A stretch of 62,107 nucleotides of DNA from Terriglobia bacterium (GTDB lineage Bacteria; Acidobacteriota; Terriglobia; UBA7540): positions 1-62,107 of the forward strand of contig JAIQGH010000019.1 in assembly GCA_020072655.1 (NCBI GenBank), given 5' to 3'. The notes beneath the pieces were generated by a model, which did not search any database, was not told the origin of the DNA, and saw nothing but the letters and a program-made list of their open reading frames with translations. A program made the translations under genes and the position numbers. This document shows, one piece after another, positions 16,539-23,933 of this stretch; the first letter of the stretch is position 1, and the number at the start of each line of letters is the position of its first letter.

Positions 16539-17972
16539 CTACCGGGCCATCCAGGATGGCGGAGGTGTAAGGGGGAAGGACCCGGGGCGGCTTGCCGACC
16601 CGGGACCGCTCTTTGGATCAAAAGGTCTTGACGGCCGCACGCCAGAACTTCGCCCGCCTCGACGACCGTAGGCGCACGTTATCAAGTAGCGCTGCGAGAA
16701 AGGCAACAACGCCAGCGCTGGAACTCCCATGATCAGGATGAATCCTGCCTTGAGGAACAGCAGCAATGGCGACATAGCCCACACCAAGTCCATGATCAGA
16801 ACCAGAGGAAAAATGCGGTGAAAGAGGCGGCCGAGGTCTTCGTAATCGAAGGCCGCTGCTGCCAACAAGTAGATTCGGACGGTGGCTGCCGCACACAGAC
16901 CCACGAGCGTGCCCTCAACGAATTGAGTCACGCCCAGATCCTGAATGACTTTCAACAGGCGATGTGCGTTCTCGGGAAGGTATTGAAATGCCGCGGCGTA
17001 CATCGCCAGATAGCCAATCTGAATTACGGTGAACAGGAGACAGGCAACCCATCGAGGTAGAGGGGCAGGAACAGGCAGCGAAGGTGGAGGGAGCGGCTGG
17101 GGTTGGACGACTGGCCGGACACGTTCGAGGTCGCTCAGGACCTCGTTTGCTGACTGATAGCGCTCATTGGGGTCCTTCCGAAGGCATTTGAGGACAACGC
17201 GCTCCAGTGCCGGCGGTGACACGGGGTTGCGTTCCGTTACGGGTGGTGGTTCGCGGGTAAGAATGTTGGCTATGGTCGATGCAGAGTCCGCCCCCCGATA
17301 GGGATTCGAACCGGTCGCCATTTCATACAAGATAAGTCCGAGCGCGTGGATGTCGGAGCGTTGGTCCACGCGCTCGGCGCGGAGTTGCTCTGGCGCCATG
17401 TAGTCGATCGTGCCGGGCTGGAATCCCGGCCCGGTAAGGCTAATCAAAGCATCAGCGGGAGCGGTTCGGACCTCGTCCGCCGCAAGCGGCAGGCGCTTGA
17501 CCAAACCAAAATCCAGAATTCTGACTCGGTCGGGGCCATCGGGACGCGGCGAGAGCATGATATTCGCAGGCTTCAGGTCGCGGTGGACGAAGCCTTTTGC
17601 GTGCACAACCGCCAAGGCATCAGCGACCCTAATCCCCACGTCCAGGATTTCTTCGGTGGTCAAGCGGCGCTCCGCGAGCCGCTTCTGGAGGGTTACTCCC
17701 TCGATGAACTCATAGACGATAAAAGCCTCATTGCCGTCATCCTCATAATCGTGTACCTGGGCGATTCCGGGGTGGCTCACTGCCGCCGCCGCGCGAGCCT
17801 CTCTTCCGAAACGCACGCGAAACTGCGGGTCAGTGAGGTACTGAGGCTTAATGACCTTGAACGCCACGTCGCGGTCCAGTTTGATGTCGCGTGCCTGGTA
17901 GACGTCCCCCATCCCCCCTCCAGGGATCTTCTTCCCGATGCGGTAGCGCTTGGCTTTGAGTTCGCCTTCCAT
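16539..17972 (-). CDS. Membrane-anchored serine/threonine protein kinase (PknB type)
   Basis: A 477-residue protein. Residues 12 to about 285 are a Hanks-type kinase with a complete catalytic set: a glycine loop GGGMGDVY, Lys39 in VAFKVIK, Glu58 in the C-helix, HRDLKPAN at 130-137 (catalytic Asp132), DFG at 154-156 and APE near 205. The loop begins IPGGGMG rather than the usual LGxGGMG. A proline-rich linker near 290-305 leads to about four hydrophobic segments, so the kinase should sit on the cytoplasmic face of the inner membrane. There is no extracellular PASTA or sensor domain. It is transcribed divergently from the envelope operon starting at 18408. Substrates are unknown. Confidence 0.93.
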   Translation of the reverse strand: MEGELKAKRYRIGKKIPGGGMGDVYQARDIKLDRDVAFKVIKPQYLTDPQFRVRFGREARAAAAVSHPGIAQVHDYEDDGNEAFIVYEFIEGVTLQKRLAERRLTTEEILDVGIRVADALAVVHAKGFVHRDLKPANIMLSPRPDGPDRVRILDFGLVKRLPLAADEVRTAPADALISLTGPGFQPGTIDYMAPEQLRAERVDQRSDIHALGLILYEMATGSNPYRGADSASTIANILTREPPPVTERNPVSPPALERVVLKCLRKDPNERYQSANEVLSDLERVRPVVQPQPLPPPSLPVPAPLPRWVACLLFTVIQIGYLAMYAAAFQYLPENAHRLLKVIQDLGVTQFVEGTLVGLCAAATVRIYLLAAAAFDYEDLGRLFHRIFPLVLIMDLVWAMSPLLLFLKAGFILIMGVPALALLPFSQRYLITCAYGRRGGRSSGVRPSRPFDPKSGPGSASRPGSFPLTPPPSWMAR

Positions 17973-18315: not shown

Positions 18316-18344
18316 TTGACTTGCTATTCCATTTCTGATAAGAG
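18316..18344 (+). promoter_or_regulatory. Candidate sigma-70 promoter of the envelope operon
   Basis: TTGACT at 18316-18321, a 17-base spacer, then TAAGAG at 18339-18344. The -35 is good and the -10 weak. It lies 64 bases before the chosen start of the beta-barrel gene, and no competing gene is nearby. Confidence 0.35.
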
Positions 18345-18407
18345 GAATCCCAATTCGGAGTGTCCTCGCTGTTTGCCGGTTCCCAACTCACAGAGGACCT
18401 GATTGCC

Positions 18408-19733
18408 ATGGCGCAAAGATATCTACGGCAACTCGGGGCCAGATTTCGAGGACGTGACAGATGCAGCTTGACGCGGGCCCTCCGGGCCTCGTGGGCGATG
18501 TGGTTGCTCTTTGTGACGCTGTATCTGCCCCAGATTGCAGCTGCACAACAGGATTCCAGGGCGGCGGAGATCGAAGCTGCCCGCGAAGAGAAATCCCAAC
18601 ATCTTCAACCCGAAAAACCCTCCAAGACGGAAAGAGCCCTGCTGACCTTCAAGGAGAAGAGAGTTCTGGAGCGCATCTCATATGGCATCGGTGGTCTACG
18701 GGTCAAACTGGGAGGCATGGTCCAAGGCGGCGGCTTCGGCATCGGACCGGAGTACTTTCGGCCGGACCTCGCCAAGGGGAACCTGGTCTTTCGCACCGCG
18801 GCCCAGGCCTCAATCTGCCGCTATCAGCGATACGACATGGAATTCGGTGCGCCGCATTTTGCACGCAACAAATTGTTCCTGAACCTCTTCGCTGTCCACC
18901 ACGACTACACGGGGATCAACTATTACGGGCCGGGCGCCGATTCGAAGCGCTCCTCGCGGACAGACTTTCGCATCATCGATACCTCCATCGACGGCACGTC
19001 CGGAGTTCAGCCGGTCAAGCACATGAAGATGGGTGTGTCGGGCGGCTATTTGCTGGTGACGCTGGGGCCGGGGCAGGACACGCGTTTTGCCTCGACGGAT
19101 CAGGTTTTTGCTCCGCAACAGGCAATTGGCATTGATACGCGTCCTGACTTTGTACGCCTGGGGACTTTCGCCGAGTATGACTATCGTGATAAGCCGGGCG
19201 GCCCACGGACCGGCGGCGACTATCTCATCCAGTTCGACCGTTATTTGGCCCGACCCCACACCGGCAACGATTTCCGCCGGCTGAAAGTCGACCTGCAGCA
19301 GTACATTCCCTTCTTCAACCAACGCCGGGTGCTGGTTCTGCACGCACAATCCGTGCTCACTTACCCGGATGACCGGAGTGTCGTTCCCTTTTACCTGCAG
19401 CCGGTCCTGGGGGGATCGGAGGACCTGCGCGGGTTCCGCTCGTTCCGCTTCTACGACAACAATCTGATCCTGGTGAATGGCGAGTACCGTTGGGAGGTTT
19501 TCAGCGGACTTGATATGGCCCTGTTCGCTGACAGTGGCAAGGTCTTTCATCGGCACGCGGACTGGAACCTCCGAGACATGGAAGCCGACTTCGGATTTGG
19601 CTTTCGCTTCAACGTTCGCAGCAATGTGTTCATGCGCATTGACACGGGATTCAGTCACGAAGGCTTCCAGGTATGGTTCAAGTTCAACAACGTATTTGGT
19701 GATGAGCGCATTCGCTCCTCGAGGTTCCAGTAG
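18408..19733 (+). CDS. Omp85/BamA-type outer-membrane beta-barrel protein
   Basis: About 441 residues from ATG 18408, which has AGAGGA upstream; a GTG 48 bases earlier is possible. A hydrophobic stretch (MWLLFVTLYLPQIAAA) near residue 30 is a signal peptide with a long N-region. The rest is a series of amphipathic strands with the motif GGSEDLRGFRSFRFYDNNLI near residue 360, matching the conserved RGF/RGY loop of the Omp85 barrel (bacterial surface antigen family). No POTRA domains are present, so it is the barrel-only form. It starts a three-gene set with a kinase-like exported protein and a PAP2 phosphatase. The role may be export or insertion of a lipid, glycan or protein; the substrate is unknown. 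Confidence 0.78.
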   Translation: MAQRYLRQLGARFRGRDRCSLTRALRASWAMWLLFVTLYLPQIAAAQQDSRAAEIEAAREEKSQHLQPEKPSKTERALLTFKEKRVLERISYGIGGLRVKLGGMVQGGGFGIGPEYFRPDLAKGNLVFRTAAQASICRYQRYDMEFGAPHFARNKLFLNLFAVHHDYTGINYYGPGADSKRSSRTDFRIIDTSIDGTSGVQPVKHMKMGVSGGYLLVTLGPGQDTRFASTDQVFAPQQAIGIDTRPDFVRLGTFAEYDYRDKPGGPRTGGDYLIQFDRYLARPHTGNDFRRLKVDLQQYIPFFNQRRVLVLHAQSVLTYPDDRSVVPFYLQPVLGGSEDLRGFRSFRFYDNNLILVNGEYRWEVFSGLDMALFADSGKVFHRHADWNLRDMEADFGFGFRFNVRSNVFMRIDTGFSHEGFQVWFKFNNVFGDERIRSSRFQ

Positions 19734-19756
19734 ATTCCGCAGTGGAAGGCTGCATC

Positions 19757-21388
19757 ATGACCAGCGCCTGTTTGCGAAGCAGAAAAGCATGGTGGAGGAT
19801 AGCTCTTCTCTTGCTTCTCGCGGGGCCGGAGTTGGAGGCGGAGAAGTTTCACGTCGACGACCCCATACAAAAAGAGCCCGCGCCGATGAACGCTGCGAAA
19901 ATCAAACCGCGCAAGGTGAGCGATTATTATGACTTCTTCCAGAACACTTTTGGGAAGCCTGGCCGCCACAAAACCAGGACCACCCGCATTCCCGCGCAAG
20001 CCGTGAACACTCTCGGCGAAGTTGCCGACAGCGCCTGGTATACCAACCGGCAATACCAAACAGCCATGACGATTCAGGAACTGGTCCGCGGACCTGGCAT
20101 CGAGAACCAACCCGACACCACCGGCATGCTCACCGTAGTGGCGGCCAAAACCGAAGGCGTAATGCCCGGGTTTACGATGAAGGACTCGAAAGGTCGCCGC
20201 TACTTTGTGAAATTCGACCCCCTCGGCAATCCGGAGATGGCGACCTCGGCCGACACCATTGGCGCAAGGTTCTTTTACGCGCTCGGCTACAACGTTCCGG
20301 AGACTTACCTGTTCACCTTTCCGCGGAAGCAACTTGTGATCGCTCCAGACGCCACCGTCACGGATGTGGGTGGGAAGCGTCGCCCGATGAATGCCCGGGA
20401 TGTGACGGATCTCCTCCTCAAAGTTCCGCAGAGGCGGGATGGCCGCTATCGGGCGGTAGCCAGTCTCCTTCTTGCCGGAAGTGTGGGCCCTTTTCGCTAC
20501 CGCGGCACGCGCCGCGACGATCCCAACGATGTTGTCCCGCACGAAAACCGCCGCGACCTGCGGGGCCTGCGGGTCTTCTGTGCCTGGCTGGGCCACGACG
20601 ACTCGCGAGCCGTCAACACGCTGGACACGCTTGTCCAGGAAAACGGCATTCAGTTTATCCGCCACTACCTGATCGACTTCGGCGCTACGCTGGGGAGTGA
20701 CAGCAACTGGCCGAATAGCCCTCGTTCCGGCAACGTCTACTGGTTTGACTGGAAGACGTCCGCCGCGCAATTTTTCACGCTCGGACTGGACGTTCCGCGC
20801 TGGGCAAGGGCCAAATATCCGCACCTCCCCGCCGCGGGCCGCTTTGAGTCAGACGTCTTCGACCCCGAGCGCTGGGTGCCGTTCTACCCCAATCCGGCCT
20901 TTGACAACTATCTCCCGGATGACGCCTTCTGGGCTGCCAAGCAGGTCATGGCCTTTACGGACGAGCAGATTCGAGCGATCGTCAAGACGGGCGAATACAG
21001 CGATCCAGCGGCGGAAAAATGGGTCGCTGATTGCCTGATCGCGCGACGGGACAAGATTGGGAAAGCCTATTTTGCAGGGGTACTTCCCTTGGACCATTTC
21101 GCCATCCGACAAGATCGCCTGGTCTTCGAAGATCTGGCTGTGAGTTACAGGCTCGCTGCCCCGCGTGATTACACTGTCCAGTGGTCCCGGTTCAACAACG
21201 AGACCGAACAAAAAACTCCGCTGCCGGGAGAAACGACCCTGACATTGCCCCGACAGCTTCAGGAAGCCCCATCGGGTGAATATTTCGCCGCCGACATATA
21301 CAGCGGGGAGAAGCGGAAGTCCGTAACCGTTTATGTCCGCAAGAATGCCGGGCTCCTCGAAGTTGTGGGCGTCGACCGCACCTGGTGA
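19757..21388 (+). CDS. Exported protein with lipid-kinase-like (PI3/4K or HipA-like) motifs
   Basis: About 543 residues from ATG 19757, which follows GGAAGG with 7-base spacing. A hydrophobic N-terminus (WWRIALLLLLAG) indicates export. Residues 145 to 315 carry features in the order of the PI3/4-kinase and HipA fold: RRYFVKFDP with Lys152, an acidic helix EMATSADTIGARFFYALG with Glu160, a NVPETYL strand, GHDDSRAVN with Asp282 and Asn287 five residues apart as in the lipid-kinase loop DRHxxN, and IDFGATLG with Asp307 in place of the metal-binding DFG. The second half has no recognised domain. Kinase activity is inference; it could instead be a pseudokinase. Periplasmic ATP would be required unless orientation differs. 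It overlaps the PAP2 gene by 4 bases. Confidence 0.68.
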   Translation: MTSACLRSRKAWWRIALLLLLAGPELEAEKFHVDDPIQKEPAPMNAAKIKPRKVSDYYDFFQNTFGKPGRHKTRTTRIPAQAVNTLGEVADSAWYTNRQYQTAMTIQELVRGPGIENQPDTTGMLTVVAAKTEGVMPGFTMKDSKGRRYFVKFDPLGNPEMATSADTIGARFFYALGYNVPETYLFTFPRKQLVIAPDATVTDVGGKRRPMNARDVTDLLLKVPQRRDGRYRAVASLLLAGSVGPFRYRGTRRDDPNDVVPHENRRDLRGLRVFCAWLGHDDSRAVNTLDTLVQENGIQFIRHYLIDFGATLGSDSNWPNSPRSGNVYWFDWKTSAAQFFTLGLDVPRWARAKYPHLPAAGRFESDVFDPERWVPFYPNPAFDNYLPDDAFWAAKQVMAFTDEQIRAIVKTGEYSDPAAEKWVADCLIARRDKIGKAYFAGVLPLDHFAIRQDRLVFEDLAVSYRLAAPRDYTVQWSRFNNETEQKTPLPGETTLTLPRQLQEAPSGEYFAADIYSGEKRKSVTVYVRKNAGLLEVVGVDRTW

Positions 21389-22356
21389 AACACAATGGTC
21401 ACAAGCTCCGGGCAGCCGTGGGAACTACTCCTTTGAGAAATCGTCTCCCCTGGTTAATCGTTGCTCAGGCTGTCTTAGTGCTCCTTTCGGCCAGCCAAGT
21501 GGCATTGCCGAACGACCCGGATACTCCTCTCCAGGAGCAGCGTTCGGCCAGTCCGCGCGAAAACAAAAACCAACCGCCGGCTGTTGCGACGTCGTCCAAC
21601 GCTGCGTACGGCATGAGGGCTTTGCCGGGCGCAATCCTCCGAGACCAGAAATTCATCTGGCTCCGCCCTTTTCGGATGCAGCGCAAGGACGCGCCCTGGT
21701 TGGCAGTGATTGTCGGCGCCACCGCCGGGTTGATCGCCACCGACCGGCGAGTCGGCCAGAGCCTTACCCGGTCGCCACCCGGCGCCGGCTATGCCTTCAG
21801 CAACCGTGCCGGGCAACTGGGAAGTGGCTTCGTGGACACGGGCGTGGCCGGTGCGTTCTATCTTGCGGGCCGCTGGCGCCAAGACGAAAACGCTCGCCTG
21901 ACGGGACTTCAGGGTTTTCAGGCGTTCGCCGACAGCTTCATCGTGGTCGAGGTGCTAAAGGTGGTAACCCAGCGCCCAAGGCCGGCGCAGCCCGGCGGTC
22001 GCGTGCGCATTCACAACGCCGAGGGCCAATTCTTCACGGGCGGATACTCTTTTCCCTCCGGCCACGCGGCGGGGGCATGGGCTGTCGCGACGGTGGTCGC
22101 AGAACGATATCGTCACCGCCCGTGGGTGCCGGCGATTGCTTACAGCCTGGCGGGACTGGGGGCTACGGCCCGGATCACCGATCGCCGCCATTTTCCTTCT
22201 GACGTCTTCGTCGGCAGCGTGGTCGGGTATCTTATTGGTCGCCATGTGGCCCGCCAGCGCTCGAGCGAATCATCCACCAGGAGATCGCACCTCTGCCTAC
22301 AGCCCTACACGCCTACGGGCAGAGGCTCTGCACTCGAACTCTCCTGGCAGTTCTAG
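21385..22356 (+). CDS. PAP2-family membrane phosphatase
   Basis: A 323-residue phosphatidic acid phosphatase-type enzyme (type 2, vanadium haloperoxidase fold). All three active-site motifs are seen: KVVTQRPRP (motif 1, KxxxxxxRP), FPSGHAAGAW (motif 2, PSGH) and ARITDRRHFPSDVFVG (motif 3, RxxxxxHxxxD). An N-terminal hydrophobic segment with basic residues ahead targets the membrane, and a poorly conserved linker of about 100 residues precedes the catalytic domain. The GTG start overlaps the stop of the kinase-like gene (GTGA), so the two are probably translated together. It should remove phosphate from a lipid or polyprenyl phosphate on the periplasmic side; the substrate is not evident. Confidence 0.88.
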   Translation: MKHNGHKLRAAVGTTPLRNRLPWLIVAQAVLVLLSASQVALPNDPDTPLQEQRSASPRENKNQPPAVATSSNAAYGMRALPGAILRDQKFIWLRPFRMQRKDAPWLAVIVGATAGLIATDRRVGQSLTRSPPGAGYAFSNRAGQLGSGFVDTGVAGAFYLAGRWRQDENARLTGLQGFQAFADSFIVVEVLKVVTQRPRPAQPGGRVRIHNAEGQFFTGGYSFPSGHAAGAWAVATVVAERYRHRPWVPAIAYSLAGLGATARITDRRHFPSDVFVGSVVGYLIGRHVARQRSSESSTRRSHLCLQPYTPTGRGSALELSWQF

Positions 22357-22907: not shown

Positions 22908-23933
22908 ATGTTGAACGCTGAAGGGGTGCCGTCGCCACAACCACAGCTAGGTCGCATTCCACGCTCATGGGCGCCCAGTGCAATCCGCCAGATTCTGCTG
23001 AACGAGAAATACATCGGAAAGGTGGTTTGGAACCGGAGAAAGAAAGTGCGCAATCCAACGACTGGCAGACGAGTCTTTCGAGCCCGTCCACAATCGGAGT
23101 GGATGCGGAGGGGTATTCCCGAGCTCCGAATCGTGAGTGATGAACAGTGGAAGCGCGCGCAAGGACGATTTGAGTACGTTCGCTCACACTTCGGCCCAAA
23201 CACAAAGGCCGGCATGCTCCCCCATTGGGCGCAGGTCAGCTCTCCGTACTTGTTTTCTGGCATTCTGCGCTGCGCTGTTTGCGGGGCATCCATGAACATT
23301 GTATCCGCCACGGGCAAGCGAACCTACTTAAGATACCGCTGCCCCATGCACGCATTGAGGGGAACATGCACGAACGGCCTGACGGAGCGAAGCGAGATTT
23401 TGGACGACCGTCTTCTACAGAGACTCCAAGAGACAATCCTTCGGCCTCAGGTAGTTGAGTATGCTCTTGATCGATTTGAGCGTGAGTTAGGAAGGCAATT
23501 GGAGAACGTGGATGATGAGCTGGAGACACTGAAGAGGCGCAAGCGGGTTCTCGAAGGGGAGATTCAGCAATTCACGTTGGCGTTGTTGGCAGCGGCAGGG
23601 GCGCGCACACCGGAAGCAATCGTAGCGGCGATCGATGATCGCGAAACAGAGTTGAAGCAAATATCCACTCGATTGCTGGAATCACGCTCGAATTCCTTCC
23701 AGGCCAAGCTGCCAGATACCAGGGAGTTTGTGACCTCGCGGCTGGGGGACTTGAGGAAATTGCTATCGTGTGACGTCGCGACTGCGAAAGCAGAGCTTCT
23801 AACGCACGTCCAGAGGATAGACCTGACGCCAGTGGAAGCAGGTGGAGAACGGTTCTGTCTTGCTGAGGGCCAATGGGATTTATTGGGTTGGTTTGGTGGC
23901 CGCAAATCAGTTGGTGCCGCGGGACGGAGTTGA
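22908..23933 (+). pseudogene. Large serine recombinase, C-terminal portion only
   Basis: Codes for about 340 residues of a large serine integrase: the Recombinase domain (APSAIRQILLNEKYIGKVVWNRRKK), the zinc ribbon (YLFSGILRCAVCGASM, then YRCPMHALRGTCTNG with the second cysteine pair), a coiled coil (LENVDDELETLKRRKRVLEGEIQQ) and a C-terminal tail. The N-terminal catalytic resolvase domain with its serine nucleophile is absent. Upstream in the same frame the family sequence continues as LVASGYSLK, then TGA, then VARMLNAEG. A sense codon, probably TCA for Ser, has thus become a stop. The 3' end enters the antisense of tRNA-Phe. It cannot catalyse strand exchange as it stands. It marks an old integration event. 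Confidence 0.82.

Follow-up and report, generated by a model that had tools for sequence, protein, structure and literature searches.

The 62,107-nucleotide stretch of a Terriglobia bacterium genome analysed here (contig JAIQGH010000019.1, positions 1 to 62,107; hereafter, the window) carries a forward-strand trio of genes encoding a POTRA-less Omp85 barrel, a kinase-fold protein, denoted K1, and a PAP2 phosphatase (Table 1). As the original prediction, made from the sequence without database searches, had it, the three open reading frames lie on one strand, the second and third sharing 4 bases, and Pfam matches identify the first and third products as Omp85 and PAP2 proteins. Translation of K1 likely starts at the ATG at 19757 (543 amino acids), which is preceded, about 8 bases upstream, by GGAAGG. 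Residues are numbered here from the GTG, so that D287, N292 and D312 correspond to D282, N287 and D307 of the original prediction, which counted from ATG 19757. The locus was compared with 151 relatives of the window genome and with 396 genomes spread over the Acidobacteriota, using 79 named loci that carry K1, a 43-member K1 alignment (for the model and profiles), 113 K1 homologues (for residue counts) and 32 barrel homologues. Because most of the sampled genomes are metagenome-assembled, the absence of a neighbour possibly reflects a contig break. The best 80 of 427 K1 relatives are all acidobacterial, except for one labelled Arcobacter.

Table 1. Features of the operon and of related loci (window coordinates unless a locus is given).
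Feature	Position	Strand	Basis or remark
Omp85 barrel, without POTRA domains	18360..19733	+	Pfam PF01103, AlphaFold2 model, Foldseek, alignment of homologues
K1, kinase fold, predicted exported	19742..21388	+	548 amino acids from GTG; AlphaFold2, VIA-align
K1 N-terminal export signal (predicted)	19757..19840	+	Sequence, homologue alignment, model helix
K157 codon, predicted ATP-binding lysine (YFVKFDP)	20210..20212	+	Alignment of homologues
K1 family signature DDPNDVVPHENRRD (D259-D272), almost invariant	20516..20557	+	Alignment of homologues
K1 catalytic loop (predicted), D287-S-R-A-V-N292	20600..20617	+	Alignment of homologues
K1 metal-binding motif (predicted), D312-F-G	20675..20683	+	Alignment of homologues
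PAP2-superfamily phosphatase	21385..22356	+	Pfam PF01569; motifs KVVTQRPRP, YSFPSGH, RITDRRHFPSD
Fused K1 branch	L040:1462-4359; L041:47-3061 (minus); L135:5456-8473		Extension without Pfam match
K2 gene, window genome	L138:237-1157 (G000:C51)		Directly before NTT-HEAT; signal-like N-terminus, DTDRNMTN...MIDFS

A kinase-fold protein encoded with an Omp85 barrel

Domain-library scans of the window protein returned no Pfam or NCBIfam match for K1, and searches against PDB sequences, whether with the single sequence or with the 43-member profile, gave nothing above chance. The AlphaFold2 model of K1 (mean predicted local distance difference test score, pLDDT, 92.8; predicted template modelling score, pTM, 0.90) has a kinase fold with an N-lobe and a C-lobe, and the best PDB matches retrieved with it by Foldseek are all kinases, namely, Fam20C (the Golgi casein kinase), CtkA, Fam20A, Rio2, HipT, PI4KII-alpha and HipA. 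Alignment with VIA-align yielded Z scores well above the tool's own 'common' level, reaching 14.5 over 238 residues for CtkA, 13.7 for Fam20C, 13.3 for PI4KII-alpha and about 11.8 for HipT. The model thus places K1 with high confidence in the PI4K/HipA/Fam20-type protein-kinase-like fold superfamily; a PI3/4-kinase- or HipA-like fold had originally been proposed for the middle protein of the trio.

Assignment to a particular family within this superfamily is less straightforward. The HipA_2 profile (PF20613) was matched by 12 of the 43 aligned K1 members (best E-value 8e-4; in the N-lobe only, where coordinates were given), and the best score in the family, 19.2 bits, is below the Pfam gathering cut-off of 27. 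Besides these weak matches, K1 shares with CtkA, HipT and HipA the D-x4-N...D arrangement, CtkA being its best overall fold match, whereas it differs from them in its predicted export, its length of about 550 amino acids and its score below the gathering threshold. No HipB-like gene was found among the recurrent K1 neighbour clusters of proteins of at least 100 amino acids. An identity of K1 as a HipA toxin is not supported, given the HipA_2 matches below the cut-off, the export signal and a constant neighbour that is an Omp85 barrel, not HipB. Neither K1 nor its homologues matched the Pfam Fam20 family, despite the strong fold match to Fam20C, Fam20A and Hydra Fam20 of the animal secretory pathway (VIA-align Z 12-13.7), and we do not claim membership in Fam20. 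Similarly, type II PI4 kinases and other PI3/PI4 kinases resemble K1 in fold and in the D-x4-N and DFG motifs, but have no sequence match to it. Of the earlier label 'lipid-kinase-like', the kinase-like fold stands, whereas a lipid substrate is not established, with CtkA and Fam20, which are protein or glycan kinases, scoring as high as PI4KII.

The putative catalytic residues, whose roles were assigned by motif and not through superposition of the model, are retained across the family: K157 is a lysine in 107 of 112 homologues, D287 an aspartate in 109 of 113, N292 an asparagine in 111 of 113 and D312 an aspartate in all 113. Both the Asp/Asn/Asp triad and the VKF lysine had been singled out in the original prediction. 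Five residues of the family signature (D259, D260, N262, H267 and R271) are kept in 113/113 homologues, and this DDPND...H...R signature preceding a C-lobe helix was not previously known to us. Judging from the alignment, the residue pattern of K1 is not due to chance. In one branch of the family, K1 continues at its C-terminus into an extension of roughly 400 residues, the ATP lysine is replaced by Arg and the catalytic Asp by Asn, Tyr or Glu; members of this branch are likely pseudokinases. In locus L060 (4344-7656), the kinase gene is tandemly duplicated.

K1 seems to leave the cytoplasm by export. Its N-terminus consists of an n-region (RSRK) and a hydrophobic core (ALLLLLAGP), with probable cleavage after LEA (LEA/EK; read by eye), and residues 10-26 form a hydrophobic helix in the model. 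By inspection, nearly all homologues share a positively charged, hydrophobic start that ends just ahead of (K/R)FYxDDP, or (K/R)F(Y/H)xDDP, in line with the export segment noted earlier for the window protein.

The upstream gene product matches Omp85 (PF01103, E-value 8.8e-12; 45.6 bits versus a cut-off of 24), and its AlphaFold2 model (pLDDT 85.9) comprises a signal peptide, about 70 residues of helix and a barrel of 15-16 strands, for which Foldseek retrieved BamA/TamA barrels with E-values of about 1e-13. The model contains no POTRA domains, the N-terminal part (residues 8-108) being made of helices only. In the L6 motif, LRGF, R357 and G358 are invariant among the 32 homologues. The barrel gene lies directly 5' of K1 on the same strand in 76 of the 79 named contigs, and likewise in almost all relatives; as for the three exceptions, one contig begins at the kinase gene (L105), in another the barrel gene is located just downstream (L128), and in the third it precedes the preceding kinase copy (L060). 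The barrel and K1 genes are a conserved core and true operon partners, which bears out the earlier description of an Omp85 barrel without further domains. The modelled barrel fits the noNterm-Omp85 subtype, which lacks N-terminal POTRA domains (PMC4104836), but stands apart through its near-constant operon with a kinase, a word absent from that survey. A tandem duplication of the barrel gene is found in L061 (2497-5019).

Phosphatase and nucleotide transporter genes next to K1

The third gene of the trio encodes a PAP2 protein with a clear Pfam match (9.6e-22; 77.6 bits versus a cut-off of 27.2) and three PAP2 motifs read in the sequence. Within the window's family, K1 is directly followed by a PAP2 gene in each of the five genomes that carry it (that of the window and four others). 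Across the named loci, PAP2 is present in 12 of 79, accounting for 6 of 60 downstream and 2 of 47 upstream genes, and is a lineage trait; as a constant partner, it was rejected. With regard to the joint occurrence of all three genes, which the original prediction proposed to check, barrel and kinase are regularly found together, and the phosphatase joins them only occasionally. In other lineages, a metallophosphatase adjoins K1 (8/60 downstream and 9/47 upstream genes), so that a phosphatase from either of two unrelated families often accompanies the barrel-K1 pair.

Unbiased clustering of the genes flanking K1 brought out a recurrent family of TLC/NTT ATP/ADP transporters (PF03219; E-values down to 5e-26, above the cut-off), which is the commonest further K1 neighbour in the relatives and accounts for 25 of the 60 downstream genes scanned by Pfam. 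A profile built from 31 of these neighbours matched two PDB sequences at E-values below 0.1, namely, 9j3n ('ADP,ATP carrier protein 1'; 9e-31) and 9j3j (chloroplast; 9e-24). NTT genes are found in 46 of the 79 K1 loci, 26 of them being the next gene downstream in the same orientation; among the 44 loci whose flanks are complete, 26 contain one. For instance, in Bryobacterales bacterium F-183 (AP025252), the barrel, kinase and NTT genes follow one another in this order with gaps of a few bases (L098: 4724-5980, 5986-7530 and 7537-8916, respectively). Barrel and kinase genes are also present in Edaphobacter aggregans DSM 19364 (L107), a culturable acidobacterium. The adjacent transporters belong to several subfamilies (single-domain, NTT-HEAT, a divergent two-member group and 740-residue HEAT fusions) and are located either downstream on the same strand or divergently upstream; this variation in subfamily and position points to repeated association rather than to a single inherited operon.

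The association extends to whole genomes. Among the 151 relatives, K1 is encoded in 28 and NTT in 43; NTT is present in 28/28 genomes with K1 versus 15/123 of the others (Fisher p 6.5e-20), and the two genes lie within 5 kb of each other in 20 of the 28 genomes, where about 0.1 would be expected by chance. In the sample of 396 genomes, NTT was detected in 56 of the 61 genomes with K1 compared to 69 of the remaining 335, and no PF03219 protein was found in 14 control genomes. Of the five K1 genomes in which no NTT was detected, one (G213) carries the fused, probably pseudokinase version of K1, a suggestive natural control, albeit a single case.

In many Bryobacterales, the gene of a 740-residue MFS/TLC-like HEAT-repeat protein (L086:8842-11037, minus strand, and relatives) is convergent with the NTT gene next to the kinase. 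An NTT-HEAT-cNMP-binding fusion of about 1124 amino acids is encoded in the window genome (L205:7793-11167; G000:C125) and in close family relatives; no exported kinase was seen close by, and this protein possibly has a different NTT role.

A second kinase family next to NTT genes

NTT genes are also associated with another kinase family, K2, represented in the window genome by a protein of 306 residues that is predicted to be exported based on a signal-like segment (Table 1); another K2 gene is located at L169:8270-9187. The K2 family profile matches PI3_PI4_kinase (5.6e-5), HipA_2, Fam20C (PF06702; 4e-4) and, in the PDB, FAM20A (2.4e-5). K2 is encoded in 78 of the 396 genomes, often in several copies, and NTT is present in 78/78 of these, at most 5 kb away in at least 27 genomes and at most 1 kb away in at least 14. 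Nine relatives with NTT but without K1 encode K2 near NTT (G004, G007, G008, G082, G099, G111, G130, G139 and G137). Taken together, one or the other kinase is found in 104 genomes, 99 of which have NTT, whereas 26 of the 125 NTT genomes have neither. No barrel partner of K2 was seen, although no systematic search was made. A profile comparison between K1 and K2 aligned no more than 40 residues, those about the catalytic loop, with a probability of 10.6%; a common origin of the two families was accordingly not demonstrated by sequence, and, given that they are not alignable past this loop, they count as two kinase families tied to one transporter.

A candidate route of ATP to the cell envelope

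According to textbook teaching, the periplasm of bacteria is free of ATP, and modification of the envelope is held to use pre-charged donors. The NTT neighbour would provide one explanation of where a kinase outside the cytoplasm obtains its ATP, and the linkage suggests that ATP is shipped into the envelope for phosphorylation there. We propose, with a probability of roughly 0.55, that exported K1, the barrel and a phosphatase constitute an envelope phosphorylation module which receives its ATP from NTT. K1 would be exported via Sec and act at the periplasmic side of, or through, the POTRA-less barrel made from the same mRNA, phosphorylating an envelope or surface substrate; the barrel would serve as an outer-membrane anchor or substrate path, and the phosphatase, PAP2 here and a metallophosphatase in other lineages, as a counter-enzyme or product recycler. 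In the inner membrane, the NTT/TLC antiporter would swap cytosolic ATP for periplasmic ADP, feeding K1. An antiporter running down the cytosol-to-periplasm ATP/ADP gradient would move ATP out and ADP back, as an exported kinase needs. In the window genome, this function may be performed by two NTT-HEAT proteins encoded elsewhere, one of them directly after the K2 gene; the latter protein, from C51, shares 54-62% identity with the NTT-HEAT encoded divergently upstream of the barrel in the nearest relatives. The broader proposition, namely that NTTs of free-living Acidobacteriota trade cytosolic ATP for ADP from outside and thereby supply two or more exported kinase families (K1 with its barrel and the Fam20-like one), has in our estimate an even chance of being correct.

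Each part of the proposed module comes from a known superfamily, and the novelty, as judged from genomics and predicted structures, lies in the combination. Fam20 kinases act in a lumen. Like K1 as envisaged here, they work outside the cytosol and rely on ATP imported into their compartment, whereas K1 is bacterial and encoded with an outer-membrane barrel. The spore-coat kinase CotH differs from K1 in that it acts at a stage when ATP is still available from the mother cell, and we know of no NTT or barrel partner for it. What it has in common with K1, as envisaged here, is that it is bacterial and modifies a structure outside the cytoplasm (PMC7821199). The proposed NTT function has a working analogue in SLC35B1/AXER, an ATP/ADP exchanger of the endoplasmic reticulum (ER) that supplies the lumen with ATP (PMC6113206, PMC12267056), although it is eukaryotic and belongs to an unrelated transporter family. 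The K1-adjacent transporters resemble the known NTT/TLC antiporters (Chlamydia-type, plant NTT1 and NTT-HEAT fusions) in their PF03219 domain and profile match to solved NTTs, but their hosts are presumed to be free-living, they presumably export rather than import ATP, and they are tied to exported kinases. NTT, NTT-HEAT and NTT-HEAT-cNBD proteins of free-living bacteria have been described, with function unknown, by Major et al. (2017; PMC5381601), whose passages on NTTs make no mention of kinases. Our literature search found no report linking NTT with exported kinases and no paper joining Omp85 with the phrase 'HipA-like kinase'. Should the proposal hold, the tie by genome position between NTT and two exported kinase families would overturn the view of an ATP-free periplasm for a large soil phylum, provide NTTs of free-living bacteria with a testable role and a reason for existence, and mirror the animal lumenal kinases served by the ER ATP/ADP exchanger.

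Several observations weigh against supply of ATP by NTT. In the window itself, no NTT adjoins the operon, the two NTT-HEAT genes of this genome being located elsewhere, and in the phylum sample no NTT was detected in 5 of the 61 genomes that carry K1. The Fisher tests take no account of phylogeny. For K2, the best-matching copy per genome is beside NTT in just 3 of 20 loci, although other copies adjoin NTT in many genomes. The identity of the NTT neighbours to characterised transporters is low, at the level of hidden Markov model (HMM) matches. Of the essential charged residues of AtNTT1, which we take to be K155, E245, E385 and K527, the HMM alignment seems to keep only E385, and therefore the solute may not be ATP/ADP. 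Finally, no bacterium is known to us to keep a pool of free ATP in its periplasm.

The last point but one would be accommodated if NTT carried another solute, such as NAD, a nucleotide sugar or a phosphate ester, which K1 and the phosphatases would consume or produce, with a K1 donor other than ATP. Among the characterised NTTs, Major et al. describe an NAD carrier and a protein for which assays showed no nucleotide transport (PMC5381601). Nonetheless, we consider this the least probable of the alternatives, because the two kinase families share the NTT association despite being unalignable beyond the catalytic loop, and ATP is their likeliest common ligand. Somewhat better placed, but still improbable, is a scenario in which K1, or what it makes, reaches the cell surface by way of the barrel and K1 acts on extracellular targets using environmental ATP, while NTT would scavenge nucleotides instead of exporting ATP. 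The near-universal adjacency of barrel and kinase and the closest fold match of K1, CtkA of H. pylori, are consistent with this, as is the translocation of partner proteins by Omp85/TpsB barrels, for example, FhaC, reported in PMC5422565. Yet K1 has no discernible secretion domain, the barrel lacks the POTRA domains that recognise cargo in known TpsB proteins, and NTT also pairs with K2, for which, short of a systematic search, no barrel partner was seen.

We assign an equally low likelihood to K1 being a structural pseudo-enzyme or barrel chaperone which retains the kinase fold as a binding module, with the NTT linkage reflecting a shared envelope regulon. That the proteins of L040, L041 and L135 lost K157 and D287 and gained the long extension implies that the fold can serve without catalysis. 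However, the K/D/N/D residues are kept in more than 95% of the 113 homologues, and the degenerate members form a distinct fused branch, with NTT missing from one of its genomes (G213), as from few others that have K1. Phosphorylation in the envelope with ATP delivered by NTT remains our preferred interpretation.

Two other genes were noted around the operon in the window. Divergent from the barrel gene, positions 16539-17972 (minus strand) encode a Ser/Thr protein kinase (Pkinase, 2.8e-42), hydrophobic towards its C-terminus, in the place taken by the NTT-HEAT gene in the nearest relatives. Just downstream of the operon, at 22908-23933, lies a serine recombinase remnant with Recombinase and zinc-ribbon domains but without the N-terminal catalytic domain, suggesting a decayed mobile element.

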